Shown: piece after piece, positions 13,768-41,721 of the stretch
How positions within the stretch are numbered: the stretch's first letter is position 1
How the letters are laid out: each line of letters opens with the position of its first letter
Source of the DNA: Gammaproteobacteria bacterium
Lineage (GTDB): Bacteria > Pseudomonadota > Gammaproteobacteria > GCA-001735895
Assembly: GCA_018669845.1 (NCBI GenBank)
Contig: JABHSO010000189.1
Coordinates: 1-64,000, forward strand
Direction of reading: 5' to 3'
DNA: 64,000 bases
The notes under the pieces: model-generated
Database searches by the model: none
The model's input: the letters and a program-made list of their open reading frames with translations, nothing else
What the model was told of the DNA's origin: nothing
Made by a program: the position numbers and the translations under genes

Positions 13768-15750
13768 TTACTTGAACAGCTTAGACTTGTCGACTAGATC
13801 AACGTGTGCACGCTTGAAGCATGTCCACTTACCAGTTTCTTTGTCATAAATAGAGTTAACGAAGCAATGCCAGTTTTCTTCGTCGACAAAGTTCTTGTCT
13901 GCACGATAGTAGAAACCAGGGTAACGAGATTCCTGACGGAATTCGATGTGCTTCATGTGAGCTTCAGCAGTTAAGATTCTGTGATAATTTTCCCATGCAC
14001 GAAGTAATTCGTGAAGGTCTTTAGCACGCATCTTCATAGCGTCTTCTTTCAGCATGTCCAGCTTCTCACCAGCAACTTTCAGCATTTCTGCGTTAGTTGT
14101 GTAGTAAGTTGCAACACCCGCTACATACTCGTCCATGATCTTCTGTAAACGGAACTGAAGCATCTTAGGAGTGATGTAGTTAGGATTAACGTCGATTGCA
14201 GTTGTGTAATCTTTGAACTCAAGGAAAGTTTTAACTGGCTGGTAGATAGCATCAACCAGTGTATCAACGTCTGTATCCAGTTCAGGAGTGAAATCAGCGT
14301 TATCCAGGCAGTACTTAACCATAGACTTAGCACACATACGTCCTTCAGCATGAGAACCTGAAGAGAATTTGTGTCCAGAAGCACCAACACCGTCACCAGC
14401 TGTGAACAGACCACTAACCGTAGTCATACCACGGTAGCCCCAGTTCCAACCAGAAGGAAGGTGAGAAGGTACGCCTTCTTCAGTTTCTGTAGTTGGCGCG
14501 CCAACATCAGTAGGACCTGAAGTCCAGATACCACAACAACCAGAGTGAGAACCTAACAGGTAAGGTTCAGTAGGCATCAATTCTGAGTTCTTCTTCTCAG
14601 GCTCGATGTTCTCACCAACCCATACGCCACATTGGCCAACACACATATCAAGGAAATCTTCCCATGCTTCAGCTTCAAGATGCTTTACTTCACGTGGAGA
14701 CAAAGTTTCGCGCAAATTGGCAAGAGCTGTAACAGTATCCATATAGATAGGACCGTTACCGTCTTTCATTTCTTTCAGCATTAAGTGGTTACGTAAGCAA
14801 GAAGCAGGAACAGCAGCCTGACCATAAGGAGGATAGTCATTCAGCATGTCTTTGTTCTTGTCCATGTAAACTTCGCCGAAAGCGTTAGTTGCTTTAGCTT
14901 TGAACAGTAAGAACCATGCGCCAACAGGACCGTAACCGTCTTTAAAACGAGTAGGTACGAAGCGATTTTCCATCAGTGTTAACTCAGCGCCTGCTTCAGC
15001 AGCCATTGAGTATGTAGAACCTGCGTTCCATACTGGATACCATGCACGACCTGTTCCCTCACCAACTGAACGAGGACGGAAGATGTTTACACAACCACCA
15101 GCCGCTAACAGAATAGCTTTAGCAGTGTATACAACGATTTTGTTTTCACGAGTTGAGAAACCTACCGCACCAGCGATACGTGAAGGATCGTTCTTGTCGT
15201 TAATCAGTTTAACGATGAAGATACGCTCTTCGATGTTCTCGATACCCAGTGATTTCTTTGCAGCTTCTGCAACGATCCACTTGTAAGACTCACCGTTGAT
15301 CATGATCTGCCATTTACCAGAACGTACAGGCTTTCCGCCGTCTGCTAATGGAGCCATACCTTTAGAACCGTCGAAACGCTCTCCGTTCTCGTCAGTTTTC
15401 CAAATAGGCAGTCCCCATTCTTCAAACAGATGCACAGATTCGTCAACATGACGACCTAAGTCGTATGCCAGATCGTCACGTGTAATACCCATAAGGTCGT
15501 TAGAAACCATACGTGCATAATCAGCTGGATCTTGCTCATCACCAATGTAAGTGTTGATTGCAGACAGACCCTGTGCAACAGCACCAGAACGATCCATAGC
15601 TGCTTTATCAACTAGTTTAATTTTAAGGTCGGTACCTTTTGCCCACTGCATAATTTCAAATGCAGCACCACAGTTGGCCATTCCGCCACCAATCATCAGA
15701 ATGTCGACTGTTTCTTCGACAACTACTGGATTTCCAAATTCACCTGCCAT
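13768..15750 (-). CDS. aprA: Adenylylsulfate (APS) reductase, alpha subunit
   Basis: A 660-residue FAD subunit of dissimilatory APS reductase, which interconverts APS and sulfite plus AMP in the cytoplasm. The N-terminal FAD-binding motif is VDILMIGGGMANCGAAFEI; later landmarks are KLVDKAAMDRSGAVAQGLSAINTYIG, a substrate-region LLAAGGCVNIFRPRSVGEGTGR and GLFTAGDGVGASGHKFSSGSHAEGR. Length matches the family. In sulfur oxidisers the enzyme runs towards APS formation, followed by Sat. It is second in an aprB-aprA operon (16 bp gap) and ends at a strong terminator; no sat, aprM, qmo or dsr gene is in the window. Confidence 0.97.
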   Translation of the reverse strand: MAGEFGNPVVVEETVDILMIGGGMANCGAAFEIMQWAKGTDLKIKLVDKAAMDRSGAVAQGLSAINTYIGDEQDPADYARMVSNDLMGITRDDLAYDLGRHVDESVHLFEEWGLPIWKTDENGERFDGSKGMAPLADGGKPVRSGKWQIMINGESYKWIVAEAAKKSLGIENIEERIFIVKLINDKNDPSRIAGAVGFSTRENKIVVYTAKAILLAAGGCVNIFRPRSVGEGTGRAWYPVWNAGSTYSMAAEAGAELTLMENRFVPTRFKDGYGPVGAWFLLFKAKATNAFGEVYMDKNKDMLNDYPPYGQAAVPASCLRNHLMLKEMKDGNGPIYMDTVTALANLRETLSPREVKHLEAEAWEDFLDMCVGQCGVWVGENIEPEKKNSELMPTEPYLLGSHSGCCGIWTSGPTDVGAPTTETEEGVPSHLPSGWNWGYRGMTTVSGLFTAGDGVGASGHKFSSGSHAEGRMCAKSMVKYCLDNADFTPELDTDVDTLVDAIYQPVKTFLEFKDYTTAIDVNPNYITPKMLQFRLQKIMDEYVAGVATYYTTNAEMLKVAGEKLDMLKEDAMKMRAKDLHELLRAWENYHRILTAEAHMKHIEFRQESRYPGFYYRADKNFVDEENWHCFVNSIYDKETGKWTCFKRAHVDLVDKSKLFK

Positions 15751-15766
15751 AATTATATTCCTCAGG

Positions 15767-16234
15767 TTATAGGTTAATTAATTCATCAGGATTACCTTCA
15801 CGGTAACCATTATGTGTGCAGAAGAAACGATTCTCTTCAATCTTCGACATATCTGCTTCTGGCTTGCCAGCATATGGTTCGATAGAACCTTCAGCAGTAG
15901 TACGGATTGGGAATTTGAAACGCTTCATAGTTCCGTTACGGAACTTGATAGTCCACATAATTGAATCGGTACCACGTAATGGCTGAACAGATCCGCCAAG
16001 AGGTACAACGTCAGCATAGTGACGACATTCGATAGCATTCTGAGGACAGATCTTAACGCAGGAATAACATTCCCAGCACTGCTCAGGCTCCTGGTTATAA
16101 GCTTTCATGGCATGACCGGTATCAGAACCGTCCATATCAAGCTTCATTAAATCGTGAGGGCAGATGTACATGCAAGCAGTCTTATCTTGACCCTTACAAC
16201 CATCGCACTTTTCGGTACGTACAAATGTAGGCAT
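15767..16234 (-). CDS. aprB: Adenylylsulfate (APS) reductase, beta subunit
   Basis: A 155-residue iron-sulfur subunit carrying two [4Fe-4S] clusters that pass electrons to or from AprA. The cysteine motifs are CDGCKGQDKTACMYICPHDL (residues 10-29) and CWECYSCVKICPQNAIECR (about 54-72). The C-terminal tail (about 90-155) is the extension that wraps around AprA in known structures. It is the first gene of aprBA, with AGGAG 7 bp before the ATG. The 350-bp region upstream has two related 20-bp palindromes and two FNR-like boxes, so expression is probably under dedicated control. Confidence 0.96.
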   Translation of the reverse strand: MPTFVRTEKCDGCKGQDKTACMYICPHDLMKLDMDGSDTGHAMKAYNQEPEQCWECYSCVKICPQNAIECRHYADVVPLGGSVQPLRGTDSIMWTIKFRNGTMKRFKFPIRTTAEGSIEPYAGKPEADMSKIEENRFFCTHNGYREGNPDELINL

Positions 16235-19450: not shown

Positions 19451-20569
19451 ATGAGTCAAAAGCTCATCAAGCGTGGCCGATTGATGATGGCTGTAACCGG
19501 GCTGAGTCTTGCAATAGTTGCAACGACAGGTCTTGCTGCAGACACTGATATAGGACCACTTCCCAAGCTGAAAACAGATTTGCTGAAGGCAGAACTGGGT
19601 AAGCGTTTATTCTTTGACAAGCGGATTTCAGGTGATGCGGGCATATCCTGTTCTACCTGTCATGATCCGGAACATGGCTTTAGTCATCCTGATGCGTTAT
19701 CTCCCGGTTATCCCGGAAACAAGCATTTCAGGAATTCACCGTCATTAATCAATGTGTCTCATAAGAAAACATGGATGCATGATGGTCGTATCGGTACTAA
19801 TTTAAATGATGCTACTCGTGAGATGATCACAGAGGATTACACCATGAATATGGATATGCGCATCATGCAGGAACGTACCAAGCAGGATCCTGAGTATGTT
19901 CGTATGTTCAAGGAAGCGGGTTATGGTGAGCCTTCTAATGGAAGCATCCGTAAAGCAATTCCTGAATTTATGAAAACACTGACTTCACGTGGTGCACCTT
20001 TTGATACGGGTAAAATGTCTCGTTCAGCTAAACGTGGTCAAAAAGTATTTGAAGGAAAAGGTGGTTGTACTGCTTGTCATAATGGCGCCAACTTCAATGA
20101 TGACAAAGCCCATAACACGGGTGTTCCCGAAAACTTTGATGTGTTTCTTGACCCAATGCGTCATCAGGCATTTCTGGCCTGGGGCTTATTTCTGGGTATA
20201 GAAAACCTTTACGCTCAAAAGCGTGATCCTGGTGCTCATATTCAAACACATAAGGCTGATGGTTCAGACATGGGTAAATTCATGACACCTAGTTTACGTG
20301 AACTTAGCTACACTGCTCCTTACATGCATAATGGCATGATTAAGACTCTTGAAGATGTTGTTGACTTCTATAATGAAGGCGGCGGTCAGGATTCTCATAA
20401 AAGCGAGTTGATGAAGCCTCTCAATCTGAGCAGTAAAGAGCAGAAAGATCTGGTTTCATTCCTGAAAGCTTTGTCAGGTGACAGACTTGAAGGTCAAGAG
20501 TTCGTATGGGATCAGGCTTATCCAGCTGAATATGCGCCTATAGCCAACTGGCGTAAAGTTAGAAACTAA
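19451..20569 (+). CDS. Di-haem cytochrome c peroxidase family protein (IdrP-like)
   Basis: A 372-residue periplasmic di-haem protein of the CcpA/MauG family. A signal peptide (about 1-30, ending GLAA) is followed by haem-binding CSTCH at 67-71 and CTACH at 206-210. The segment FMTPSLRELSYTAPYMHNGMIKTLEDVVDFYNEGG is the conserved C-terminal haem region. The start follows an excellent Shine-Dalgarno (CGGAGGT). It is the first of four genes separated by at most 16 bp, ending with a Rieske protein and an AioA-like molybdoenzyme. In characterised iodate reducers two such peroxidases (IdrP1, IdrP2) are thought to remove hydrogen peroxide or act in electron relay. Assigning P1 versus P2 needs a tree. 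Confidence 0.85.
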   Translation: MSQKLIKRGRLMMAVTGLSLAIVATTGLAADTDIGPLPKLKTDLLKAELGKRLFFDKRISGDAGISCSTCHDPEHGFSHPDALSPGYPGNKHFRNSPSLINVSHKKTWMHDGRIGTNLNDATREMITEDYTMNMDMRIMQERTKQDPEYVRMFKEAGYGEPSNGSIRKAIPEFMKTLTSRGAPFDTGKMSRSAKRGQKVFEGKGGCTACHNGANFNDDKAHNTGVPENFDVFLDPMRHQAFLAWGLFLGIENLYAQKRDPGAHIQTHKADGSDMGKFMTPSLRELSYTAPYMHNGMIKTLEDVVDFYNEGGGQDSHKSELMKPLNLSSKEQKDLVSFLKALSGDRLEGQEFVWDQAYPAEYAPIANWRKVRN

Positions 20570-20585
20570 GTCGAGGAGATTTGAA

Positions 20586-21788
20586 ATGAAAAATTCATTA
20601 TTAAAAAAATCGGCATTAGCTTCTATTGCAATTGCCGTCACTTTAGTTTGTGGTTCTGCTGCAGCTGAAATGAAAATTGTGTCCAAGGGCATGGGTGGAG
20701 AAGTCAATCCTCCTCTAGCGCCTTTACCTCCTATTCCTGAGGTGATGGATAACAAAAATACCCCTGAGAAGATTGAGCTTGGAAAAATCCTGTTCTTCGA
20801 TCCTCGTATAGGTGGAGATGCTTCTGTTTCATGTGCGAGTTGTCATGATCCTGCACAGGGTTGGGCATGGGCTGAGGATTTCTCTCGTGGATATCCTGGT
20901 ACCGTTCACTGGCGTAACAGTCAGACCGTTGTTAACTCCCAGTACATGAAAAAGCAATTCTGGGCTGGTGGCGCTTCATCCGGTATGAACCAGGCTCGTT
21001 CTGCAGCCAAAGGTGGTGTTGCTGGTAACGGTGAAGACGATCTAATGGAAGTACGTTTAGCGTTGATTCCTGAATACAAAAAACGTTTTAAAGATGTATT
21101 CGGTGATGAATGGCCGCTAATTCGAAACGTTTGGCGTGCAATGGCTTCTTTTGAAACGACTCTGATTTCTGATAACACTCCTTTAGATGCTTATCTGAAA
21201 GGCGATAAGTCAGCACTAAGTGATCAGCAAAAGAAAGGCATGAAGTTATTCAACGGAAAAGCTAACTGTATCGAATGTCATAACGGACCTCTGGCAACAG
21301 ATGAACGTTATTATAACATTGGTGTTCCGACAGCAGGTCGTTGGGACGAAGATGGAATGGCACAGATTACTTTCCGCTTTGAGCAATATGCAAAAGGTGT
21401 GACTGAAGACATGTATCGTCATATTAAAGATGATGCCGGTTTCTACTATCGTAGTAAAAACAAGTGGGATAAGGGTAAATTTCGTACACCTAATTTAAGG
21501 TATACAGCTTATACCGCTCCTTATATGCATAACGGTGCTTTCTACACGATGGAAGAAGTGGTTGATTTCTACAATCGTGGCGGTGTTGATGAAGATGGTA
21601 ATACCACTTCATTCCCACAAAACAAGAGTAAGTTGATCAAACCTTTGGGATTGAGTGACGATGAGAAAGAAGATCTGTTGGCATTCCTGGAAGCTTTCTC
21701 AGGTGATGAGATTGAAATTGAAAAACCAGAGTTACCTGATTACGCACCACTATTCACAAAAGCTGAATTAATGGAGGCTAAAAAATGA
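20586..21788 (+). CDS. Second di-haem cytochrome c peroxidase family protein (IdrP-like)
   Basis: A 400-residue periplasmic di-haem peroxidase-family protein, a paralogue of the preceding gene. The signal peptide ends near residue 27 (SAAAE). Haem motifs are CASCH at 83-87 and CIECH at 228-232; the C-terminal block TPNLRYTAYTAPYMHNGAFYTMEEVVDFYNRGG matches its neighbour. It carries an insertion between the haems (WAGGASSGMNQARSAAKGGVAGNGEDD). GAGG lies just upstream, and the stop overlaps the start of the Rieske gene by 4 bp, indicating translational coupling. The tandem of two di-haem peroxidases beside an AioBA-like pair is the diagnostic context of iodate reductase. Confidence 0.85.
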   Translation: MKNSLLKKSALASIAIAVTLVCGSAAAEMKIVSKGMGGEVNPPLAPLPPIPEVMDNKNTPEKIELGKILFFDPRIGGDASVSCASCHDPAQGWAWAEDFSRGYPGTVHWRNSQTVVNSQYMKKQFWAGGASSGMNQARSAAKGGVAGNGEDDLMEVRLALIPEYKKRFKDVFGDEWPLIRNVWRAMASFETTLISDNTPLDAYLKGDKSALSDQQKKGMKLFNGKANCIECHNGPLATDERYYNIGVPTAGRWDEDGMAQITFRFEQYAKGVTEDMYRHIKDDAGFYYRSKNKWDKGKFRTPNLRYTAYTAPYMHNGAFYTMEEVVDFYNRGGVDEDGNTTSFPQNKSKLIKPLGLSDDEKEDLLAFLEAFSGDEIEIEKPELPDYAPLFTKAELMEAKK

Positions 21789-22357
21789 GCACTCAAGTAA
21801 AAGATAAAAAAGAGACGTCAGCTGCACACGGTAAGTGCATGATGACACGTCGCGGCTTCCTGATGAGCAGTGGAGCAGCAACAGCAGTAAGTACCGTTGG
21901 TGTATCTTTATTCCCAGGCGCGGCTGCTGCTTCTAAAGCAGAAGTTGTTGGTTATCCTCGCAAGAAGATCGCTAAACTGAGCCAGTTAAAAGATAACCAG
22001 CCAGTTGACTTCAGCTACCCTGAAGGTGTCAGAAATAATCAGTGTATGCTGGTAAAAGCTGGTGTTCAGGCTGGTGGTGGTGTAGGCAAGGCTAAAGATG
22101 TTGTTGCCTTCAGTTATCTCTGTACTCACCAGGGCGGTCCGATGCAGGGCAGCTACAAGGTAGTCGGTGATCAGCGTGTTCTGGGCCAGTGTCCATTCCA
22201 CCTGTCAACGTATGATGTACGTCGTCATGGCATTATCGTGTCTGGCCAGGCTTATGAAAGTCTGCCACAGGTGTTGCTTGAAGTAGATGGCGATGATGTC
22301 TACGCTGTTGGCATGTTGGGACTGGTTTTCGGTCGCACATCTAATTTTAAATCGTAG
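21785..22357 (+). CDS. idrB: Tat-exported Rieske [2Fe-2S] subunit (IdrB/AioB-like)
   Basis: A 190-residue Rieske protein. A twin-arginine signal (TRRGFLMSSGAATAV, Arg22-Arg23) precedes a mature domain with the two Rieske motifs C113-T-H115 (YLCTHQGGPMQG) and C136-P-F-H139 (GQCPFHLSTYD). It should pass electrons between periplasmic cytochromes and the molybdenum subunit. Because the large subunit has no signal of its own, the folded heterodimer is probably exported together through this Tat signal, as described for AioBA. Start overlaps the previous stop (ATGA), and the large subunit follows after 12 bp. AioB of arsenite oxidase is the main alternative; the operon partners favour IdrB. Confidence 0.8.
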   Translation: MSTQVKDKKETSAAHGKCMMTRRGFLMSSGAATAVSTVGVSLFPGAAAASKAEVVGYPRKKIAKLSQLKDNQPVDFSYPEGVRNNQCMLVKAGVQAGGGVGKAKDVVAFSYLCTHQGGPMQGSYKVVGDQRVLGQCPFHLSTYDVRRHGIIVSGQAYESLPQVLLEVDGDDVYAVGMLGLVFGRTSNFKS

Positions 22358-22369
22358 GAGGCAGAAGAC

Positions 22370-25066
22370 ATGTCTACAAAATATTATATTCCTGAAGATA
22401 ATGCGCCTTTGCCACCAAAGCATGCTGAAGTTTTAACAACAGCCTGTGATTACTGCATCGTGGCTTGTGGCTATAAAGTTTATCGCTGGCCTCTGGGCAG
22501 TGGTAACGGTGGTCAAAAAGCATCACAAAATGCATTCGGCATTGATTTTCCATCAGCTCCTTTACAGGACTGGGTGGCACCTGCACAGCATAACGTTATC
22601 ATGCATAATGGTATGCCACACAATGTTGTTATCACGCCTGATAAAGATACCACGGTAGTTAATACCAACGGTGACTCATCAATGCGTGGTGGTTTGATTG
22701 CGCAAAAATGTTACAACCCTAAAACACCAACAAGAGACCGCTTGCAATCTCCGTTGGTTAGAATCCACGGTACCTTACAACCTGTACCCTGGGATTTTGC
22801 ACTGGATATCGCTGCAGAAGTTGGACGCCATGTTATTAAAGATCACGGTGCCAATGCCTACTCGGTAAAAACTTACTCTTACCAGTATGTTGAAAATACC
22901 TATGCAATTTCCAAGTATGCACGTCGTCATATCAATACTGCTGCTTTTACATTCCACGATACACCTTCAGATGTAACATCTACTCCGGGTTTTCGTGATG
23001 CAGGTTTTGATAACTTCGGTCCGAGTTATGATGATTGGGCCTCAGCCGAAACATTGATGGTCTGTGGTACTGATCCATACGAAACAAAAACTATCCTGTT
23101 CACTCAGCATCTAATGCCAGCCATACAAGGTGGTCAGAAAGTAATTATGCTGAACCCTCGTGAAACTGCGGGTGTTGCGTATGTGAAGAAGATGGGTGGT
23201 TTGCACATTCAGTTGAATCCGGGTACTGATAACCTGGTTCTAGGTGCAATTGCTGCTGAAATTTTGAGAAATGGCTGGGAAGATTCAGACTGGATCAAAA
23301 AATGGGTTAACAATAAGTGGGAAACCAGTTCAGGTTTTGGACAGGGTACTCGTAATACTCCATGGCAATGGCGTACTACCTGGGGCAAGTTCCAGACTAA
23401 TGGTTTTGAAGGCTATAAGAAGTGGGTTCTGGGTCGTAAAGAGTATGATCTTGGATACGCTGCTGAAAAAGCTGGAATTCCAGTTTCTGACATGACTAAA
23501 GCTGCAGAGATGCTGGCTAAGCCTGTTAATGGCAGACGTCCTAAAACTTCAATCGGTATCGAGAAAGGTTTTTACTGGTCTAATAATACTGGTAATACTG
23601 AAGCAATCTCTTCACTGGCTACTATCTGTGGTGCAGGTGGTCGTCCGGGTCAAATGGTTGGTCGTTTTGGTGGTCACCAACGTGGTGGTACTGGCGGTGG
23701 TAAATACCCTCGTAACAAGTCACCTGAGAAAGTACCTGGTCGTCGTAAGCGCGCACTGGATACTGATCGTTGGTTAGTCAGTGGTCATACCCGTTTTGCA
23801 CACGTTATTGGTACTACCTGGATTCAATCCATGTGTGGTTCACAGGGTCTTGAAAAAGCTTTCCATGAGCAAGTTACTTCTAACCCGCATCAGGTACGTG
23901 ATTATGACAAGCAGGCTATTATCGATACGTTGAAAAAACGTGCTGATTCCGGCGGCATGGTTGTTATCAATCAGGATATCTACCTGCGTGATCCAATCGG
24001 TGCCAAGTTTGCTGATATCGTTTTCCCTGCTGCAACCTGGGGTGAGGAAGACTTTGTAAGAGCAAACGGTGAGCGTCGTATTCGTCTGTATCAGAAGTTC
24101 TACGATGCACCGGGTGATGCAAAGCCAGATTGGTGGATCATTGCACAACTTGCCAAACGTATGGGCTTTGACGGTTTCGACTGGAAAAACTCTAACGAAG
24201 TTTGTGAGGAGTCATCTCGCTTTAGTCGTGGAAACCGTAAGGCATACCACATGATTAAAGTTGCAGCTCATAAAGAAGGTAAAACTCTGCATGAAAAGCT
24301 AAGAGAGCTGGGTACTGATGGTATTCAGGGACCAACCTTCTATAACTATGAAACGGGTGAGTTAGGTGGAACCAAGCGTCTGCACGATACAACCATGACC
24401 GAGGCAGAGATTGCTCGCATGGGAGGTGGTGACGGTGCTCAGGCCGCAAACATGGTGAATAAGAAGATGACACACTTTAACAGTCAGACTGGTAAGGTGA
24501 ACATCAACAAACATCCATGGAGCCTGTTCTCTGACTTCTGGGAGTGGTTATCTCCTAAGGATGACGAGCTTTGGTATTCGACTGGCCGTATCAACGAAAT
24601 CTGGCAGTCAGGTTTTGACGATGTGGAAAGACGTCCTTATGTCACTCAGCGTTGGCCTGAAAACTGGGTGGAAATTCATCCAAATGATGCAGCCAAACGT
24701 GGTATTGAATCTGGTGATCAGGTCATGATGTACTCAAATCGAGTCGCTAGACATAAAAATACTATTCTGGGCGTTAAAGGTGATGACTTCCAATTCTCAA
24801 GTTTGATGAAAAATGGACATATCGAATTAACAAAAGCAGCTGTAACAGCCGTTGCGATTGTGACTCCAGTGGTCAAAGAAGGCATGTTATATGCCAACAT
24901 GATCGATATGAGCCAGCCTTCCAACTCATTACAGCCAGCGGTAGTTGACTGGATAAGTGGTAACTACAACTACAAGATGGGTGTAGGCAAAATCAAGAAG
25001 CTTGGTGAGTCTAAGTACAAGTCAGAGTTCCGTAGCATGTCATTTGCACCACGGAATATCACTTAG
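22370..25066 (+). CDS. idrA: AioA-like molybdopterin oxidoreductase, probable iodate reductase catalytic subunit
   Basis: An 898-residue member of the DMSO reductase superfamily, closest in layout to AioA/IdrA. The N-terminal cluster motif C26-x2-C29-x3-C33 (CDYCIVACGYKVYRWP) with a serine near 104 (GDSSMRGG) in place of a fourth cysteine suggests a [3Fe-4S] cluster as in AioA. Mo-cofactor regions include GTDPYETKTILF, LNPGTDNLVLGAIAAEI and the Arg432-xxx-His436 motif (GRFGGHQ). Where arsenite oxidase has His and Glu eight residues apart, this protein has His196 but Ser204. There is no signal peptide, consistent with Tat co-export on the Rieske subunit. It is about 70 residues longer than typical AioA. 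Iodate is the best-supported substrate by gene context, not by direct proof. Confidence 0.78.
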   Translation: MSTKYYIPEDNAPLPPKHAEVLTTACDYCIVACGYKVYRWPLGSGNGGQKASQNAFGIDFPSAPLQDWVAPAQHNVIMHNGMPHNVVITPDKDTTVVNTNGDSSMRGGLIAQKCYNPKTPTRDRLQSPLVRIHGTLQPVPWDFALDIAAEVGRHVIKDHGANAYSVKTYSYQYVENTYAISKYARRHINTAAFTFHDTPSDVTSTPGFRDAGFDNFGPSYDDWASAETLMVCGTDPYETKTILFTQHLMPAIQGGQKVIMLNPRETAGVAYVKKMGGLHIQLNPGTDNLVLGAIAAEILRNGWEDSDWIKKWVNNKWETSSGFGQGTRNTPWQWRTTWGKFQTNGFEGYKKWVLGRKEYDLGYAAEKAGIPVSDMTKAAEMLAKPVNGRRPKTSIGIEKGFYWSNNTGNTEAISSLATICGAGGRPGQMVGRFGGHQRGGTGGGKYPRNKSPEKVPGRRKRALDTDRWLVSGHTRFAHVIGTTWIQSMCGSQGLEKAFHEQVTSNPHQVRDYDKQAIIDTLKKRADSGGMVVINQDIYLRDPIGAKFADIVFPAATWGEEDFVRANGERRIRLYQKFYDAPGDAKPDWWIIAQLAKRMGFDGFDWKNSNEVCEESSRFSRGNRKAYHMIKVAAHKEGKTLHEKLRELGTDGIQGPTFYNYETGELGGTKRLHDTTMTEAEIARMGGGDGAQAANMVNKKMTHFNSQTGKVNINKHPWSLFSDFWEWLSPKDDELWYSTGRINEIWQSGFDDVERRPYVTQRWPENWVEIHPNDAAKRGIESGDQVMMYSNRVARHKNTILGVKGDDFQFSSLMKNGHIELTKAAVTAVAIVTPVVKEGMLYANMIDMSQPSNSLQPAVVDWISGNYNYKMGVGKIKKLGESKYKSEFRSMSFAPRNIT

Positions 25067-25097
25067 GAAGTTTTATGCTGTAATGGCATGATGTAAG

Positions 25098-25141
25098 AGT
25101 GTGGCGGGGCATCCCCCTGTTTCCGTCACACTCGTTTTTTT
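25098..25141 (+). terminator. Terminator of the idr-like operon
   Basis: A 10-bp stem with one G-T pair (AGTGTGGCGG / CCGTCACACT) followed by CG and a seven-T run, 32 bp after the stop of the molybdoenzyme gene. It marks the end of a four-gene transcription unit. Confidence 0.8.
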
Positions 25142-25216: not shown

Positions 25217-26911
25217 TTATTTTTCTTGCTGAGTTAATAACTGTTTAAAATTATCACCATCAACGGGTTTACTAAACAGATAACCCTGGCAAATATCACA
25301 TTGCTTTTCCTTAAGAAATTGCAATTGAAATTCCGTTTCAACACCTTCTGCAATAACCTTCATATCTAACGCATGTGCCATGGCAATAGCCGCAGTGACT
25401 AAGACTTGGTCTTCAGGTTTATTTTGCAGGTCTGAAATAAAGGATCGATCAATTTTAATAATTGAAAATGGAAATTCACGTAGGTAACTCAGGGAAGAAT
25501 ATCCGGTTCCAAAATCATCCATTGAAAAATGTACCCCCAGTTGGCGTAATGCCAATAAGGCATCTTTGATATTACTTTGAGAACCTAGTAGTAAACCTTC
25601 AGTAACTTCCAGTTCGAGTTGTTCTGGTTCCAGACCGGTTTCTTTTAAAATATTATCCACTAAGTCAGGTAAATGATTTTGTCTGAATTGTTGTGGTGAA
25701 ACATTAACTGCAATAGTTAATGGCTGACCATCAGATCCGGTTAAGTCTTTAAAAAAATGACAGGCTTGTTGTAATACATAAACACCAAGCTGCTCGATGA
25801 TGCCAATTTGTTCAGCGATACCGATAAATTCATCGGGTGATACTCTGCCCAATTGAGGGTTATCCCAGCGTATTAGTGCTTCGGCACCTATTATATTTCG
25901 GGAGGTAGTTTCTATGAGTGGTTGGTAATAAACACAAAACTCATTTTTTTCAAGAGCATGATGTAAATGATTTTCCAGGGTCATGCGACGCATCACTGTC
26001 TGATTCATTTCACCATTAAATAAATGATAATTATTTCTTCCAGACTGTTTGGACTGATACATAGCGGTATCTGCATTAACCAGTAACTGTTTGTAATCTC
26101 TACTGTCATCGGGAGAAAATGAAATGCCAATACTAACGGTAATAAGCAACTCCATATGGGAAATCTTTACCGGTTTTGCAAACAGTCGCATGATATTATC
26201 AGCGACCAGTTTGGCATCAACCGTATGCTCCAGAGCCGACAAAATGATAATAAACTCATCGCCACCCAGTCGACCGACTGTGTCTCCTCTGCGTACACAT
26301 CGATTTAAACGTGCTGCGGTTTCTTTGAGTAGCTGATCGCCTGCATCATGCCCCAATGTATCATTTATTTTTTTAAAATTATCCAGATCAATGAATAACA
26401 ATGCTGTTTTCAGGAGATCCCGGCTGTCATTGGTTATTGCATAGCGTAATCTATCCATGCTTAAACTTCGGTTAGGCAAGTTTGTCAGGCTGTCATACAG
26501 TGCCTGATGTAAAATCAATTCTTCACTACGACGTAATTGTAACTGGTTTTTAACTCGAACTTTTACCGTTGAAGGTCTTACCGGTTTAGTCAGGTAATCA
26601 ACAGCACCCAGTCTAAAACCCATTTCATGATCATCATCCTGATCTCTTGCAGTGACAAATATGACAGGGATATCTCGGGTGTCAGGATTTGCCTTTAGCT
26701 CACGACATACCTGGTAACCATCCATTTCAGGCATGGATACATCCAGTAGAATTAGGTCTGGTTTTTGTTGTCGGGCAATGGATAAACCTTTTGAACCATT
26801 TAATGCAAAAAGAACACGATACTCCTGTTGCAGTATCTGATTGAGGATGGTGATACTGTCTGGTGTATCATCGATGATTAAAATACTTGGTTTTTCAAAA
26901 GGCTTTGACAT
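25217..26911 (-). CDS. Response regulator with GGDEF and EAL domains
   Basis: A 564-residue regulator of cyclic di-GMP. Order: receiver (ILIIDDTPDSITILNQIL, Asp in LILLDVSMPEMDG, Lys in YLTKPVRPS), GGDEF domain with an intact RLGGDEFIII, and EAL domain with AEALIRWDN, FSMDDFGTGYSSLSYL, IKIDRSFI and EGVET. Both catalytic signatures are kept, so synthesis and degradation are both possible. The ATG at 26911, four bases after the upstream kinase stop, is preferred to an overlapping start at 26953, because residue 15 of the longer frame begins the receiver. It is the last gene of the signalling operon and its probable output. Confidence 0.88.
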   Translation of the reverse strand: MSKPFEKPSILIIDDTPDSITILNQILQQEYRVLFALNGSKGLSIARQQKPDLILLDVSMPEMDGYQVCRELKANPDTRDIPVIFVTARDQDDDHEMGFRLGAVDYLTKPVRPSTVKVRVKNQLQLRRSEELILHQALYDSLTNLPNRSLSMDRLRYAITNDSRDLLKTALLFIDLDNFKKINDTLGHDAGDQLLKETAARLNRCVRRGDTVGRLGGDEFIIILSALEHTVDAKLVADNIMRLFAKPVKISHMELLITVSIGISFSPDDSRDYKQLLVNADTAMYQSKQSGRNNYHLFNGEMNQTVMRRMTLENHLHHALEKNEFCVYYQPLIETTSRNIIGAEALIRWDNPQLGRVSPDEFIGIAEQIGIIEQLGVYVLQQACHFFKDLTGSDGQPLTIAVNVSPQQFRQNHLPDLVDNILKETGLEPEQLELEVTEGLLLGSQSNIKDALLALRQLGVHFSMDDFGTGYSSLSYLREFPFSIIKIDRSFISDLQNKPEDQVLVTAAIAMAHALDMKVIAEGVETEFQLQFLKEKQCDICQGYLFSKPVDGDNFKQLLTQQEK

Positions 26912-26915
26912 GCTG

Positions 26916-29900
26916 TTATCCACTGGCCAGCGAGATATCTTTGCTTTGAGCAAATGCTTTAATTTTTTTCAGGGCTGATGAGAAATTAAGTTGTTCAATA
27001 TGGTTGTTTATGTCGGTTAATATCTTGGTATCTGCTTTATTGTTGATAACTTTAAGCAGACCATTTATTTTTTGACTGGCACGCATGTCATTAGTATCCA
27101 GCATAGTGGCCAGCTCGTTCAGTAATTTTGCAAGTGTGTCGTCACTAATGGTGACTTGTTGAAGCTGCACATTAGCTTTGCTTTTATCTTCTCCGTTAAT
27201 ACTGATGCTATTACGTTTTTTCAGAAACTCTGTTATTGAATTAATCACTAAAGAAAATTGCTGGTCAAGCTGTGCGAGAGCATCAGTATGATTTTGCCTG
27301 GAAATTAATGTATTTTGCAGATGTTTTGCTGCTGCATGAAGCGGGTTCATTGAAAGATTGGCTGCACTACCTGACAGCGTATGAGCGGCTTTTTCTGCTG
27401 TTTCAATATCATTTTTACTGATGGCATAGTGAATACTTTGGAGAATTTCATCATACTGCTCAGGAAATTTTTCAAGCAATTTAAAGTATAACTGCCTGTT
27501 TCCCATCACTCTCTGTAAACCATCATTAATATCAATGCCTCTGATTACTAATGGTATATTGGTTATATTATCTTCCTGTAATGGTTGCTGAGGTTTTATA
27601 TCTAACCATTGGGATAGTTCAGCTAATAAATGTCCAATATCAATCGGTTTAGAAATATGAGCATTCATACCTGCATCAAAACACTTTTGTTTCTCATCTT
27701 CAAATGCATGAGCCGTCATAGCGATGATTGGTAAATCTTCTTTAGAGACAAATTGACGAATTTTCAAAGTTGCGTCATAACCGTCCATTACGGGCATTTG
27801 TAAATCCATCAGAATACAATCAAAGACTGAAGGATCTTTTTTAATCAATTTTACTGCCAGTTCCCCGTTTTCCACCGATTCAACAGTAAAACCATTTCGA
27901 ACCAGTATTTCCACTGCAATTAATCGGTTTGTGGGCTGGTCTTCTACAATTAAAATTCTACGACCACCACCATCAATATGTGCTGATACTGTTTGATTTT
28001 TAAGTTGACCTCGCTGGTAAGCTTTGGGTAAGTTTTCACCTAAAGCCATCATCATGGCATCAAAAAGTACTGAAGCATTAACCGGCTTATGAATATAACC
28101 ATTTAAACCTGCTAAACTGGCCTGTGACATGACCTTTTCTCGATCATACCCACTCACCATAATTATCATAGGTGGTTTATCCAGCTTTAAATCGTGATTT
28201 ATTTTTATAGCGGTTTCAACACCATTCATGTCGGGCATCATCCAGTCCAGCAAGACCAGATCATAATTTTTGTACTGAGTAGATTGATTAGCCAGCAATA
28301 AGCTATCAATAGCCTCTTGTCCAGAATTGACGATTTCATATTCAAATGATAACGAGGAGAGTATTGAAGCCAGTATTTCACAAGAAGTACTATTGTCATC
28401 CACGATGAGTAATTTAAGATTTTTCAGGTGATCAGGTAAATGAAAAAGTTTGTTCTTTTGTTCAGATTGAAGTTTAAATATTGCATTGAAAGTAAAGATG
28501 GAGCCTTCATCCGGAGAACTTGTCACGTGGATGTCTCCGCCCATCGAATTAATAAGGTATTTAGAGATCGTGAGTCCCAGACCGGTACCTCCATAGCGTC
28601 TTGTAATGCTACTATCGGCCTGTTTAAATGCTTCAAACAAATGCGATATCTGTGTTTCAGTCATGCCTATGCCTGAGTCTCTGATTGAAAATATAAGTTC
28701 AACCGATGAGCGATGGGTCTGCTCAACAGAAATAGCAATAACGACTTCTCCTTTATCACAGAACTTAACCGCATTTCCAGTGAGATTAATGAGTATCTGT
28801 CCTAGCCGGGTGGGGTCGCCAATAAGATTTCGTGGAATATGTAATGGAATATCAAACAATAACTCAATATTTTTCACTTCAGCTTTTTGCAGAGTAATTT
28901 CAGTTAAATTATCCAGTACGTGGTCAAGATCAAATGCTATGGATTCCAGTTCAAGTTTTCCTGCTTCAGCTTTAGAGTAATCCAGCAAATCATCAATAAT
29001 ACCCGTTACATGAGTCATCGAATTGTGAATTGTATCGACATACTGATTTTGGTTATCCGTTAACTGAGTTTGCTTTAGTAAGTAACTCATGCCAGTTACT
29101 GCGTTTAACGGTGTTCGAATTTCATGACTCATGTTAGCCAGAAACTGTGATTTTGACTGGTTAGCCTGTTCTGCTTCCATGCGGGATGTATTCAGATCCT
29201 GCATCATATTCAATGAAGCTTTGCGAGCACCTGTTAATTCCTGAATACGTTGTTCTAATTGAAGCTCCGCATTTTTTCGACTGGTAATATCACGAATAAC
29301 TTCCATTTTGGATGTGCTTCCATCCAGATTTAAAATTGGCGTGGCAACTATTTCAAAAGTACGTCCATCATCGGTAGTAGGTACATAATGTGTGGTTATA
29401 CCATCTGAAATAATTTCATCCAGTTTGCAGTAGGGACATTTATTTTCCAGGCCAGCTACAGCCTGATAGCAAGTCTTGCCCGTCTGGTCTCCAAACCAGT
29501 CAATCATCACCTTGTTCATGTAACGTATCTGATAGTTTGAATCTACAATAAATAAACCTTCACCAATTTCAGCGATAGTATCTACGATGGTTCTGTAGCG
29601 TTGTTCGCTATCTTTAATTTCCTGTTCGGCCTTTTTTTTGTCGGTAATATCAAACGATACACCGGTTAATCGTACAGGTTCATTGTTATCGGAAATTAAA
29701 ACTGCTTTAGATCTAATATCACGGGTTAAACCCGATGGTAGAATAACCTGGTATTCAATTTCATTGAGTTCACCTTTAATGGCTAAAGATATTGCATTTT
29801 GCACATTATCTAAATCTTCAGGGTGTATACATTTTTTCCAGTTATCGGGGGTAAGCTGAAAATTTTGTTCATCAAGGCCTAGTAAATCAAAGCCTTTTTT

Positions 29901-30638
29901 ATCCCACATCAATTCATTGCTCACTAAGTTCCAGTCCCATACACTGAAATCGGCAGATTCGGCAGCCAGGGTTAAACGTTCATTGACTTCAGAGAGGCTT
30001 TTTTGCTGAGACTCCAGCTCAATATTAAGAATACGGGTTCTATTTCGGCTAATCCAGAGTAAAACCAGTAATAGCATCAGGATTGAACTACCTAAAGATA
30101 CAATGATTAGTTTCTTCTCATTTTGTAAATTAATTTTGTCTGTCTGCTGTTGGATGGTCTGTTCCAGTTGCTGCTGATTGTGCATCACTGCATCCTTAAG
30201 TTCTGTTTTTTCAGAGATATCAATAATGATAGAAAAAAGCAGTGTCTTGCCGTCAAAGTCAATCGGATAGGAGTGAACTTCGACCGAACGAGTACTGCCA
30301 TTTGCCAGACGATGTCGGAAGATAAAATAATTTCGTTGCTCGGTTTTAGCGCGGTTACGCTCATCTGCAACCTGTTCCCGGGTTAATGTGTTTATCTGCT
30401 GAATTGACATCTGTTCCAGCTGTTTTTGAGGGTAACCATAAAACTGACTAGCGGCAGGGTTTGCCCGGGTTATCTGTCCATTGCTGGGGTCAATCACCAG
30501 CATCACAACACCATGTTTATTGAATACTTCCTCAAATACATGTTCAGCTAAACTCTTTGTGGGAAAAAAAAGTCCCCCTAACAAAAATGTAATTAACAAG
30601 AAGTTGAATAAAAGTGACGTATTTTTTTTGCTCATCAT
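26916..30638 (-). CDS. Membrane hybrid histidine kinase: three PAS, HisKA, HATPase, two receivers, HPt
   Basis: A 1240-residue phosphorelay hub. N-terminal membrane segment (about 8-31), PAS (about 38-145), a second transmembrane helix (178-197), PAS domains at about 220-335 and 345-455, coiled coil, then HisKA with His505 (ANMSHEIRTPLNAVTG). The HATPase domain has GDPTRLGQILINLTGNAVKF, RDSGIGM and GTGLGLTISKYLI. Two receivers follow (LKLLIVDDNSTSCEIL with LVLLDWMMPDMNG; RILIVEDQPTNRLIA with CILMDLQMPVMDG) and a C-terminal HPt domain (AEKAAHTLSGSAANL). The third PAS has a Cys set (GKTCYQAVAGLENKCPYC) suggesting a redox or metal centre. It overlaps the upstream gene by 4 bp and probably feeds the downstream REC-GGDEF-EAL protein. 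Confidence 0.9.
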   Translation of the reverse strand: MMSKKNTSLLFNFLLITFLLGGLFFPTKSLAEHVFEEVFNKHGVVMLVIDPSNGQITRANPAASQFYGYPQKQLEQMSIQQINTLTREQVADERNRAKTEQRNYFIFRHRLANGSTRSVEVHSYPIDFDGKTLLFSIIIDISEKTELKDAVMHNQQQLEQTIQQQTDKINLQNEKKLIIVSLGSSILMLLLVLLWISRNRTRILNIELESQQKSLSEVNERLTLAAESADFSVWDWNLVSNELMWDKKGFDLLGLDEQNFQLTPDNWKKCIHPEDLDNVQNAISLAIKGELNEIEYQVILPSGLTRDIRSKAVLISDNNEPVRLTGVSFDITDKKKAEQEIKDSEQRYRTIVDTIAEIGEGLFIVDSNYQIRYMNKVMIDWFGDQTGKTCYQAVAGLENKCPYCKLDEIISDGITTHYVPTTDDGRTFEIVATPILNLDGSTSKMEVIRDITSRKNAELQLEQRIQELTGARKASLNMMQDLNTSRMEAEQANQSKSQFLANMSHEIRTPLNAVTGMSYLLKQTQLTDNQNQYVDTIHNSMTHVTGIIDDLLDYSKAEAGKLELESIAFDLDHVLDNLTEITLQKAEVKNIELLFDIPLHIPRNLIGDPTRLGQILINLTGNAVKFCDKGEVVIAISVEQTHRSSVELIFSIRDSGIGMTETQISHLFEAFKQADSSITRRYGGTGLGLTISKYLINSMGGDIHVTSSPDEGSIFTFNAIFKLQSEQKNKLFHLPDHLKNLKLLIVDDNSTSCEILASILSSLSFEYEIVNSGQEAIDSLLLANQSTQYKNYDLVLLDWMMPDMNGVETAIKINHDLKLDKPPMIIMVSGYDREKVMSQASLAGLNGYIHKPVNASVLFDAMMMALGENLPKAYQRGQLKNQTVSAHIDGGGRRILIVEDQPTNRLIAVEILVRNGFTVESVENGELAVKLIKKDPSVFDCILMDLQMPVMDGYDATLKIRQFVSKEDLPIIAMTAHAFEDEKQKCFDAGMNAHISKPIDIGHLLAELSQWLDIKPQQPLQEDNITNIPLVIRGIDINDGLQRVMGNRQLYFKLLEKFPEQYDEILQSIHYAISKNDIETAEKAAHTLSGSAANLSMNPLHAAAKHLQNTLISRQNHTDALAQLDQQFSLVINSITEFLKKRNSISINGEDKSKANVQLQQVTISDDTLAKLLNELATMLDTNDMRASQKINGLLKVINNKADTKILTDINNHIEQLNFSSALKKIKAFAQSKDISLASG

Positions 30639-31516
30639 AATAATTCGTCAAGGTTAAATTTATTATCTTTTCCTTGCTCTTTTAACAATCGGTTAATATC
30701 TTTTTTTAATTCAATCATCTTTATTTCACGCCCAATTGCTAATTTATTAAATTGTTCCAGCTCTTGAACTTTGTCCTGAACTTGTTGTCGAATTTTTAGC
30801 CTTTCTGAAATATCTTCAAAGGTAATGACTACTCCCGTTATACCGGTAGATTCATTAACTGGGGTCGCATGATAAGAGACAGGGATTGCCTGACCATCAG
30901 CGCGCCAGAAAATATCTTCGTCAATAAATATATCCTTCCCGGTTTTAAGCACATTTAAGATTTGACTGGACTGAACTGGATAAGGTTTCCCATTGGCATA
31001 TTTATGTTGAATTAAGGCATGAATACTCTTTCCTTTAAGTGCTGACTCTTTGGAATATCCCAATAAATTTAATGCGGTAGTATTGAAAAAAGTAGTGTTA
31101 CCTGATTGATCTATTTCAAATATTCCCTCATGAACAGAAGCCATTAGGCTGCTCCAGATAGCAGCCTGTGATATCAGTTCTTTTTCCTGCAATTTTCGCT
31201 GGGTAATGTCAGTAGCAATTTCCATTAGAACCAGGTGATTATCAAACCAGTAAATTGCCTGATCTCGACATTCATACCATTTATTATTGGAAGTATTTTG
31301 GTGCTCCCAGGTATAAATGCCTGTAGGTTTGCCTTTTGCAGAAACCAGAAATTTATTAGTACAAAACTCGCAAGGGCCCGTTTGATCATTTTGAAGTGTT
31401 TTCCAGCAAGTCTTTCCTTTAACATCTCCGAAAATATCTATTCCATATTTATTGATAAACAGTAATTCATAGGTTTCCATATCGGCTATGTAGACGATTG
31501 AATCCATACTGTTCAA
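30635..31516 (-). pseudogene. Downstream half of amber-split PhnD-PAS-PAS sensor
   Basis: An open stretch of 293 codons encoding two PAS domains. The first (MDSIVYIADMETYELLFINKYGIDIFG, with GKTCWKTLQNDQTGPCEFC) and second (ASVHEGIFEIDQSGNTTFFNTTALNLLGYS) end in a helix (GREIKMIELKKDINRLLKEQG) also found at the C-terminus of the 32638-34431 protein. It is in the same frame as the upstream 31553-32641 gene, separated only by TAG and 12 sense codons. The first possible starts (TTG 31516, ATG 31507) have no Shine-Dalgarno, so it is best read as the second half of one broken gene. Its stop overlaps the kinase start. Confidence 0.75.
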
Positions 31517-31552
31517 AATGGTGGTGAGCGTGTTATATGACTGCAGTTGACG

Positions 31553-31555
31553 CTA
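31553..31555 (-). other. In-frame amber codon splitting a sensor gene
   Basis: The minus strand reads GAA-TAG-CGT; reading through gives a continuous linker (KIAE-x-RQLQSYNTLTTILNSMD) joining the PhnD/transmembrane half to the PAS half. A single C-to-T change from CAG would create it. TAG ends other genes here (lexA, for example), so it is not reassigned genome-wide. Confidence 0.75.
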
Positions 31556-32641
31556 TTCGGCTATCTTTTGCTTCTTTATTTCCTGCTGTAGAAGGCTATT
31601 CATCTTGTTACTTTTTATAAAGCCAAAGAATAACAATATGAAAATAATCAATGATAGAAGAAATTGATACCGGTATGTATTGACCACTGAAAACAGGGTG
31701 ACTGGTTTTGGTTTATAGGGACCAAGACTGGCCTCCATAAATAGCTCTCTAACACGAGAATATTTTCCGGGTATACCCCATCCGTAAATACCGGCTGCCT
31801 TTGCTGCGGGGTCAGCATTATTTAGGTTCAGTAATACTTTTAATACCTTATGGGCTACATCAGGAGAAGTTCCGTTGACCATTGCAAAAGGCCACTCAGG
31901 ATATAGGCGGGTACTTAATAGATAGGGGTAATCACTCTCGTTAATTTGATTAATTATTTTTATCTGATTAAATTTTAATTCCCCCTGATTGGCTAATTCT
32001 TCTATAAGATCAGAACGAATAAACCCTACGTCAGCATTGCCCTTCAGAATCGACAAAATAACTTTTCTATGATTTTTTAATTCAATGATTTCTGCCTGAG
32101 TACGTAAATCAATTCCTTGAGATAAAGCTTCACGTAAATGAACTTGCCACCCACCCAGACTCGATTTAGAAGGTATAAGTATTTCTTTTCCACCAAGGTC
32201 AGAATAGCGATTAATATCTTTCCTTGATGAAAGGGCGATAGCCGTTCCACCAAAATTATCCAGTATTCCTGATGTACTGGATAAACGTCGCGTAGCCAGT
32301 AGAGAGACATATCCATTTAACTCCAGCTCTGTATAGTGACCAGGGTTTGTTATTACGAAATTGACCTCCTGATTTGCAACTGCTTGAGTTAATTCATTAT
32401 TTTTATAAGAGAGAGGAATGATTTTAAATTTTATAGGTGCTAATTTTTTATTAAGAAGTGTTTCATGGGCACTCCATTTATTTATAGCATCTAGTTTACC
32501 TTTATAGGCCAGCACTCCAATTTTAAATTCAACACTTGAAGAAGTGACCAAAATAGAAGGGTCAGAAGCATTTAAATTAACGGAGAAAGTGATTAGTACA
32601 ATAAAACCAAGAATCATACTGATATGAATTATGCGGCTCAT
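31553..32641 (-). CDS. PhnD-type periplasmic-binding sensor, truncated by amber codon
   Basis: A 362-residue product: signal/anchor (about 8-25), a PhnD/phosphonate-binding-like periplasmic domain (about 38-300; FKIGVLAYKGKLDAINKWSAHETLLNKKL, then NQEVNFVITNPGHYTELE and NADVGFIRSDLIEEL), a transmembrane helix (about 325-345) and a short coiled tail ending QQEIKKQKIAE at the TAG. Proteins like this (TtrS-type sensors) normally continue into PAS and kinase modules; here the continuation lies in frame after the stop. Its start overlaps the stop of the preceding gene by 4 bp. If no readthrough occurs, the truncated product would be a binding protein tethered to the membrane without signalling output. 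Confidence 0.75.
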   Translation of the reverse strand: MSRIIHISMILGFIVLITFSVNLNASDPSILVTSSSVEFKIGVLAYKGKLDAINKWSAHETLLNKKLAPIKFKIIPLSYKNNELTQAVANQEVNFVITNPGHYTELELNGYVSLLATRRLSSTSGILDNFGGTAIALSSRKDINRYSDLGGKEILIPSKSSLGGWQVHLREALSQGIDLRTQAEIIELKNHRKVILSILKGNADVGFIRSDLIEELANQGELKFNQIKIINQINESDYPYLLSTRLYPEWPFAMVNGTSPDVAHKVLKVLLNLNNADPAAKAAGIYGWGIPGKYSRVRELFMEASLGPYKPKPVTLFSVVNTYRYQFLLSLIIFILLFFGFIKSNKMNSLLQQEIKKQKIAE

Positions 32642-34431
32642 GAAGATTCATCCACTACATATTTTTCTACTAAACCCTGATCAACTAAAAGCTGATTGAT
32701 TTCTTTTTTCAATTCAATCATCTTTAACTCACGACCTACCGCCAGTGTATTAAAGACCTGTAACTCTTCATATTTTTCCTGCAACTGCCGCTGAATTTCA
32801 AGCCGTTCTGTTATCTCTTCAAAAGTAACCACAACACCGGTTATTTCTGATGAATGTAAAATAGGGTTGGCACGGTAAGTAACCTGAATACTCTGTCCAT
32901 CTGCTCGCCAGAATACTTCATTTTCAATCAATACTGCTTTACCAGTTTTAAACACATTGGACATGTGGCAGGATTCAAAAGGATAGGGTTTTCCATCAGC
33001 ATATTTATAATGAATTAATGAATGAAGATTCTTACCGGTAAGCTCTAATTCACTTTTATAACCCAGTAACTTGAGTGATGTGGCATTACAAAATATACAT
33101 TTACCCTGGTTATCCAGTCCAAATATTCCTTCGTTGACAGAAGCCATTAAACTGGCCCAGATTTCTGTCTGTTTTTGAAGGTTAATTTCGATAGCCTTAC
33201 GCTCAGTTATATCGGTTGAAATGCCACAAACCGCATATGTTTCTCCATTTCGTGATTGAAGAGGAAATTTAATGGAAATGTAAGTGTGACTGTTATCACC
33301 AACAGGTACTTCTTCTTCAAACTCAATGACACTGTTGGTTTCAATGACCTGGCGATCATTAGAGCTAAAGTTTTCGGTGTAGTGATCTGGAAAAAGATCC
33401 TTGTCAGTTTTTCCGATAATTTTATCTAAAGAAATATTAAACAGACTTTCATACATTTTATTTATAAAAAGGTACTTTCCTGATAAATCCTTAATATAGA
33501 TGACAGTAGAAGTATTATTAAAAAATGACTCCATTTGCTGCTGATAACGATGAGCATTTTCCAGTAACTGTTGTTGTTCCTTATCACGTTGTCGGATTCT
33601 ATCTAGCATCAAGTTAAAGGCCGTTGAAACCTCATCAAACTCTTGCTGACCTGTTAAGGGTAAACTAAAGTCATAATTGCCTTTAGAGATGTTTTTGCTT
33701 GCGTTTATTAAGTTTATTAAATTCCTTAAAAGTTTATTTCGTATAACAAAGTAAATAAATATCAGGCTTATAAATAACGTTACCAGAAAAGCTGTTCCAA
33801 CCATCATTGTATTTTTTAAGAATGCTCTTTTCATTGTTTCAGCAGGTAACTTGATACTCATTAACCCACGTAAATCACCAACCTGGTAATCATAACTCTC
33901 TGCGTAACGTGATCTGATTGTAGGATGAGCATTTTCCCTTTTTCCATGACATTTTAGGCAATATTCTTCAACATAAATGGGCATGCTGAAATGAAAAAAT
34001 GACTCACCCCTGTTATTTATAAAGGGTACAAAACGCTCTTTTTTGCCTGGGTTAGTACGGAAATATTGCATGGCAGCCAACTCAATATCATCAGCTGCAT
34101 TGTCGGGGTTACGAGGGTGATCTGAGACATTATTAAAACTCATACCAGATTCTGACCAGTTTGAGAAATCCTTTGAAATTTTTGCCAGTGCATGAGCAGG
34201 TAAAAACCCCAGTGTTTTACTGTTCAGAGGGATACCACTTTCGGTAAATTGATGATGATATACCCGTCGAGTAGACATCAGGATATTACGAATATTCCGA
34301 GCCTGGGTGACTCCATCATGAATGATGTGATTTTTCTGGTTTTGGTAGAGCAGAGAAATCAAAATGATTAGAGCGACTGTAAAAGTAATCGTCATAATCA
34401 GGATAACTTGAGATTTTAATGTGAACCTCAT
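32638..34431 (-). CDS. Membrane sensor with DUF3365 haem-type domain, HAMP and two PAS domains
   Basis: A 597-residue sensor, first gene of the signalling operon. A transmembrane helix (about 9-29) is followed by a periplasmic DUF3365/Tll0287-like domain carrying a c-type haem motif CLKCH (158-162), a second helix (about 209-230), HAMP (230-283), and PAS domains at about 300-415 and 425-540. It ends with a helical tail (GRELKMIELKKEINQLLVDQG) shared with the amber-split sensor. There is no kinase domain, so it likely signals through the kinase encoded two genes downstream. The c-type haem suggests sensing of a redox state, oxygen or NO; this is family-based inference. Confidence 0.85.
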   Translation of the reverse strand: MRFTLKSQVILIMTITFTVALIILISLLYQNQKNHIIHDGVTQARNIRNILMSTRRVYHHQFTESGIPLNSKTLGFLPAHALAKISKDFSNWSESGMSFNNVSDHPRNPDNAADDIELAAMQYFRTNPGKKERFVPFINNRGESFFHFSMPIYVEEYCLKCHGKRENAHPTIRSRYAESYDYQVGDLRGLMSIKLPAETMKRAFLKNTMMVGTAFLVTLFISLIFIYFVIRNKLLRNLINLINASKNISKGNYDFSLPLTGQQEFDEVSTAFNLMLDRIRQRDKEQQQLLENAHRYQQQMESFFNNTSTVIYIKDLSGKYLFINKMYESLFNISLDKIIGKTDKDLFPDHYTENFSSNDRQVIETNSVIEFEEEVPVGDNSHTYISIKFPLQSRNGETYAVCGISTDITERKAIEINLQKQTEIWASLMASVNEGIFGLDNQGKCIFCNATSLKLLGYKSELELTGKNLHSLIHYKYADGKPYPFESCHMSNVFKTGKAVLIENEVFWRADGQSIQVTYRANPILHSSEITGVVVTFEEITERLEIQRQLQEKYEELQVFNTLAVGRELKMIELKKEINQLLVDQGLVEKYVVDESS

Positions 34432-41645: not shown

Positions 41646-41721
41646 TACAGTATGTGGCCAAATTTTCTCACGGGATCAGGTCGTTATTTCTAACCAGATA
41701 TGTTTCAGCTTCGAGAGCTAA

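Follow-up and report, generated by a model that had tools for sequence, protein, structure and literature searches.

The iodate reductases of Pseudomonas sp. SCT, Denitromonas sp. IR-12, Aromatoleum TC-10 and Azoarcus DN11 are encoded by the four genes of the IdrABP1P2 system, in which the peroxidase genes are located before idrAB (PMC8692401, PMC8801600, PMC10149662). IdrB carries a Tat (twin-arginine translocation) signal, IdrA carries none and the two peroxidases have Sec-type signals, as reported in PMC8692401. In the published model, electrons pass from quinol through a cytochrome c to IdrAB, which reduces IO3- to HIO; chemical disproportionation follows, and the peroxidases deal with H2O2 (PMC8692401). 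The arsenite oxidases (AioAB) of Rhizobium NT-26 and Alcaligenes faecalis are homologous over most of the protein and also have [3Fe-4S] and Rieske centres. Here we describe a four-gene cassette of this kind in a 64,000-nucleotide stretch (the window) of contig JABHSO010000189.1, from an uncultured, sulfur-oxidizer-like marine member of the Gammaproteobacteria (assembly GCA_018669845.1). It is probably an IdrABP1P2 cassette of a marine Idr subclade, and the role that we propose for it is periplasmic iodate reduction, as an accessory acceptor or an oxidant-removal route.

The cassette and its family

The four genes are separated by gaps of 16 and 12 bases, and the start of idrB overlaps the preceding stop by 4 bases (Table 1). 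Both peroxidase-like proteins have a CCP_MauG domain (E values of 7e-37 and 2e-40) and two CX2CH motifs each. The Rieske protein includes a TRRGFLM Tat motif followed by CXH-X20-CX2H and scored 116 bits with TIGR02694 (cut-off 95.65), while the large subunit includes the [3Fe-4S] motif CX2CX3CX70S and scored 388 bits with TIGR02693 (cut-off 359). NCBIfam labels these two models as arsenite oxidase subunits, and there was no Idr model among the NCBIfam matches. The SCT, IR-12, TC-10 and DN11 proteins share with the window the Fe-S motifs, the Tat-type Rieske protein, the Sec-type di-haem proteins and an IdrA that lacks a signal peptide (signal peptides of the window proteins were judged by eye from the sequence). 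The motifs of DN11 (PMC10149662) match those of the window, except that the Rieske spacing is X18 instead of X20. Downstream of idrA, a hairpin (25097-25133) is followed by T7; its RNA fold of -21.9 kcal/mol (z -4.3) was not equaled in stability by any of 200 shuffles, and it was absent from the output of a consensus terminator scan. Open reading frames, profiles, motifs and hairpin agree with the initial annotation, made from the nucleotide sequence, of four packed genes for two di-haem peroxidase-family proteins, a Tat Rieske protein and an AioA-like molybdoenzyme closed by a terminator.

Table 1. Coordinates of the cassette and of neighboring features within the window
Feature	Position	Strand	Evidence
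First gene, for a di-haem peroxidase-like protein of 372 aa with a Sec-type N-terminus (IdrP2 by position)	19451..20569	+	Open reading frame, profiles, motifs, tree
Second gene, for a di-haem peroxidase-like protein of 400 aa with a Sec-type N-terminus (IdrP1 by position)	20586..21788	+	Open reading frame, profiles, motifs, tree
idrB, Tat-exported Rieske [2Fe-2S] small subunit, 190 aa	21785..22357	+	Open reading frame, profiles, motifs
idrA, molybdopterin large subunit, 898 aa, no signal peptide, pocket loop HDTPSDVTS	22370..25066	+	Open reading frame, profiles, PDB matches, tree, alignment
Intrinsic terminator, GC-rich hairpin plus T7	25097..25141	+	Hairpin, RNA fold
aprBA neighbors, context only; also adjacent in one sister species (G369)	13768..16234	-	NCBIfam profiles
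PhnD-type binding protein / PAS / hybrid kinase / GGDEF-EAL cluster, context only	25217..34431	-	Absent here in G369

The large subunits were compared by one tblastn against plasmids and by surveys of about 1,300 genomes. Identity to the window IdrA fell into bands of 62-98% for marine Idr, 56-58% for an intermediate branch, 48-51% for a further group and about 28-30% for AioA. We refer to the 48-51% group as DIRM-type, a label of our own for proteins recognized by their gene neighborhood and not by a named, verified IdrA. Among plasmids, relatives were found in Azonexus, Thiothrix and Vibrio only. A maximum-likelihood tree of 71 large-subunit sequences separated the marine, 56-58% and 48-51% groups from AioA with a support of 100 in the Shimodaira-Hasegawa-like approximate likelihood ratio test (SH-aLRT), leaving the window sequence outside the arsenite oxidases and on the Idr side. 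The tree comes from a quick search with SH-aLRT as its only support measure and with a long outgroup, and each group forms one branch; the separation of Idr from AioA holds irrespective of the outgroup. Genome G228 has both an Idr cassette (57%, L154) and a separate AioA-type gene (30%, L169).

The order peroxidase-peroxidase-idrB-idrA was found in 90 of the 91 Idr loci with enough upstream sequence, 88 automatically and two by inspection (L156 and L167, where the idrA frame had been read too long and idrB is present). The sole true exception is L157 (G346:C78), which has idrB-idrA without peroxidases and encodes a 973-amino acid IdrA homologue (51%) that branches at the base of the Idr clade. 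No peroxidase gene was found in any of nine AioA loci, in line with the earlier statement that arsenite oxidase operons lack the two peroxidases. Four adjacent genes of such composition, conserved in about 90 other loci, are not a product of chance.

In the peroxidase tree, each of the two peroxidases forms one clade (support 99) whose branching repeats that of the IdrA tree. The four genes thus move as a set and have been passed on jointly from a time before the marine and DIRM-type subclades diverged. These two Idr-specific clades also stand apart from the other CCP/MauG proteins of the host genome. MauG, MbnH and bacterial cytochrome c peroxidases share the CCP_MauG domain and the two CX2CH haem sites, but the window peroxidases did not reach the equivalog cut-offs for MauG (at most 193 of 444 bits) or MbnH (at most 216 of 363 bits). 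IdrP1 and IdrP2 are 35-39% identical, the family expectation being about 37%. Because the DN11 accessions run A 44092, B 44093, P1 44094 and P2 44095 (PMC10149662), and the peroxidase genes are stated always to come before idrAB (PMC8801600), the first gene of the window cassette would encode IdrP2 and the second IdrP1.

The molybdenum site and the substrate

Eight second-sphere residues of NT-26 AioA are listed in PMC10448176. The window IdrA keeps four of them (H196, K399, R432 and H436), while S170, T198, S204 and R438 replace Asp169, Arg201, Glu207 and Glu453 (NT-26 numbering). In all or almost all Idr sequences, other residues take the place of the latter four AioA residues, whereas the complete set is unchanged in all 15 distinct AioA sequences; arsenite oxidation by the window enzyme is therefore unlikely. 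The DHGGxGGG loop of AioA is missing from the window IdrA. Ser200 was considered as a fixed Mo ligand, but this position varies among Ser, Ala, Gln, Met and Thr across Idr and no such ligand is therefore claimed. Given the grouping with Idr, the peroxidase pair upstream, the mirrored peroxidase trees and the four replaced pocket residues, the membership of the cassette in the IdrABP1P2 family is firm.

Within that family, the closest relatives are the marine Idr of Endozoicomonas, Vibrio, Moritella, Sedimenticola, Thiomargarita, Thioploca, Thiodiazotropha and Ruegeria, which share the gene order and the pocket loop of the window (71-98% IdrA identity in the best 80 named loci). Among 98 distinct marine sequences, T198 and R438 are present in all and S204 in 97, and the loop HDTP is nearly invariant. 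The DIRM-type enzymes also have S170, H196, K399, R432, H436 and R438 (the last in six of seven sequences), but all seven have Lys and Asp at the positions of T198 and S204, and the loop reads HDK. The two subclades also have different Mo sites, and the marine pocket may have lost an acidic side chain (Glu in Aio and Asp in the DIRM-type enzymes, Ser here) and, two residues beyond the catalytic His, a basic one.

The genomic neighbors of the marine relatives vary, and many have nearby a cytochrome c/EB_dh protein of about 800 amino acids that the window lacks. This protein, with two CBB3-type c domains and an EB_dh haem domain, is found near idr at L232:1424-3835 and in about 25 other marine-clade loci, sometimes adjoined by a smaller c-type cytochrome, and is a candidate electron donor module for Idr. 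A CydA-like protein (PF01654) is encoded downstream of idrA in loci of the 57% branch, SAR324 and Hyphomicrobiales (L233:12974-19000, L154, L155, L052, L081), together with a c-type cytochrome in L233 and with a HEAT-repeat protein in the 57% branch.

Several observations weigh against assigning iodate reduction to the window enzyme. Its IdrA is 48% identical to the subclade of L109, where the proven respirers appear to sit as judged by neighborhood; the DIRM-type group as a whole, to which the SCT, IR-12, TC-10 and DN11 cassettes would belong by the same measure, is at about 48-51%, and at the two pocket positions the DIRM-type Lys and Asp face T198 and S204 of the window. L109, a DIRM-type locus on an Azonexus plasmid, has the order sensor kinase atoS, sigma-54 regulator atoC, the two peroxidases, idrB, idrA, a cytochrome c and moaA, and an arrangement or accessory genes like these have been described for proven iodate respirers (PMC10149662, PMC8801600). 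Unlike such systems, the window cassette has no adjoining atoSC, c551 or moaA, and a search 5' of it for the sigma-54 promoter needed by a DN11-type AtoC gave no matches above chance; no structured RNA was found in the window. The Roseovarius azorensis IdrA has a reported mass of 99.4 kDa (PMC11445184), which is within the range of three DIRM-type alphaproteobacterial proteins (99.2-99.4 kDa) and below that of all 30 marine-type proteins examined (99.6-100.6 kDa). There is thus a weak hint that the IdrA of even this marine strain may be DIRM-type and, therefore, that it may not verify the marine subclade. A search for this protein by masses found that an IdrA of 99.4 kDa and an IF-2 of 89.1 kDa never coincide in a genome where both are readable.

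These differences could mean that the marine enzyme has the Idr fold and another main substrate, such as bromate, chlorate, selenite or a non-iodate iodine species, or that it is a general periplasmic oxidant-removal device. A marine loop so nearly invariant and yet so unlike the DIRM-type loop is consistent with this idea, and many of the carriers are sulfur oxidizers or symbionts, on which we found no iodate tests in the literature. We nonetheless regard it as unlikely, since the two subclades have the four-gene cassette, the Fe-S motifs and the other pocket residues in common, and most named taxa of the marine subclade live in the sea, where iodate is the main oxidized iodine species (PMC11445184). 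Furthermore, Endozoicomonas sp. OPT23, Sedimenticola thiotaurini, Vibrio and Moritella are treated as idr carriers, or iodate reducers by genotype, in PMC8692401, and the OPT23 locus or the loci of the other three taxa lie inside the subclade of the window. Iodate is, consequently, what we infer to be the best candidate for the substrate.

IdrAB has the sequence motifs of a [3Fe-4S]/molybdenum bis(molybdopterin guanine dinucleotide) enzyme with a Rieske subunit, both subunits probably being exported to the periplasm by the Tat signal of IdrB. With iodate as the substrate, quinol would supply electrons by way of bc1 or a c-type cytochrome; the Rieske and 3Fe-4S centres would relay them to Mo, the site at which IO3- would be reduced to HIO; I- would then be formed by chemical disproportionation, and the two di-haem peroxidases would remove H2O2 or other oxidant formed en route. 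The cassette could function in this way as an accessory acceptor or an oxidant-removal route under low oxygen. For the present organism, this electron path and chemistry are proposed by analogy with the described systems, and they would require nothing specific to sulfur.

Genomic surroundings and sulfur oxidation

The initial annotation also pointed to aprBA about 3 kb away and raised the possibility of sulfur oxidation coupled to iodate. The aprBA genes are indeed 3.2 kb from the first idr gene, with TIGR02061 and TIGR02060 above cut-off, and the suhB-, trmJ- and CbiM-like genes located in between are kept in the order apr-suhB-trmJ-cbiM-idr in the sister species G369. Among the DNA fetched around idr in the other relatives examined, G369 is the only one with aprA nearby, so the linkage looks like a place of insertion rather than a functional unit. 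In G1204, which belongs to another genus of the same family (IdrA 89%), the cassette is flanked instead by moeA, nnrS and a modABC-like transporter; moeA and the transporter support a molybdenum enzyme. The host genome (97% complete, 5.3% contamination) has soxB in pieces on contig ends and no dsrA above cut-off; sulfur oxidation by this organism is plausible, only partly evidenced. Within its small order, IdrA is present in five of 41 genomes in a patchy distribution.

A cassette specific to lithotrophic sulfur oxidation and coupled to iodate through aprBA is, in our view, quite improbable. The proximity of aprBA, the soxB pieces and the recurrence of the cassette in many sulfur-oxidizing lineages would fit it, and the best 80 named Idr loci include those of Thiomargarita, Thioploca, Halobeggiatoa, Thiodiazotropha, Sedimenticola and tubeworm symbionts. 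Against it stand the confinement of the adjacency to one sister species and the placement in G1204 beside Mo genes, and the carriers in Vibrio, Ruegeria and Moritella suggest independence from sulfur oxidation. Of the iodate reductase reading of the initial annotation, then, the family assignment is borne out by the trees, which showed neither of the groupings that the annotation had named as refuting it (the large subunit within the arsenite oxidases, or the cytochromes with ordinary CcpA/MauG). Iodate reduction is a fair inference, while the nearness of aprBA gives no support to the sulfur coupling. A sulfur oxidizer with idr was noted in 2021, and Sedimenticola has already been pointed to as an idr carrier (PMC8692401); we found no literature joining iodate with Thiodiazotropha.

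On the other side of the cassette, a 9-kb signaling cluster lies between idrA and the gene for phosphoenolpyruvate synthase. Its PhnD-like binding protein (31553-32641) was considered as an AioX-type sensor and showed no match to NT-26 AioX (best 15.8 bits). For this reason, and because in G369 the whole cluster is absent from the interval after idrA, we place it outside the idr system. Farther downstream, 37996-50793 contains a glycogen metabolism cluster (glycogen synthase, branching enzyme, glgC-like, GH57, GH77, phosphorylase and phosphoglucomutase).

Arsenite oxidation, Thiomargarita and the marine subclade

That the genes are an aioBA arsenite oxidase in an unusual neighborhood is very improbable: TIGR02693 and TIGR02694 are above cut-off, solved AioA structures are the best PDB matches of the window IdrA and the literature describes a clade relative in Ca. 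Thiomargarita nelsonii as an arsenite oxidoreductase, but the low identity to AioA, the separate clade, the altered pocket, the peroxidase-free aio loci and the lack of arsenic resistance genes in Pfam scans of the neighbors all argue otherwise. The report on Ca. Thiomargarita nelsonii described arsenite oxidoreductase genes, one set of which has two mauG-like peroxidases ahead of it (mauG-mauG-aioBA), and a possible arsenite lithotrophy (PMC4853749). The Hydrate Ridge record of this organism (L027) groups near the window and carries the marine Idr pocket loop. The mauG-mauG-aioBA set falls in the Idr clade and is better read as Idr, and the published arsenite lithotrophy raises the question of whether it should be read in the same way.

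This kind of cassette is already known and common in sulfur bacteria, and the window is a further genuine carrier. Its interest lies in the marine subclade, whose carriers range from giant sulfur bacteria to symbionts of animals and free-living marine bacteria, and not in a sulfur coupling based on proximity. Marine iodide production influences ozone chemistry, and idr genes serve as its genetic marker; the cassette described here and its frequency in sulfur bacteria and symbionts lengthen the list of candidate iodate reducers. The pocket residues leave room for the marine Idr to be a functionally distinct enzyme with a substrate preference of its own, which we consider unlikely. If it were, then, given the acidic and basic residues that its pocket would have lost, counts of marine iodate reducers based on genotype may be partly wrong. 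The point raised for the field is whether the marine-clade Idr really acts on iodate.

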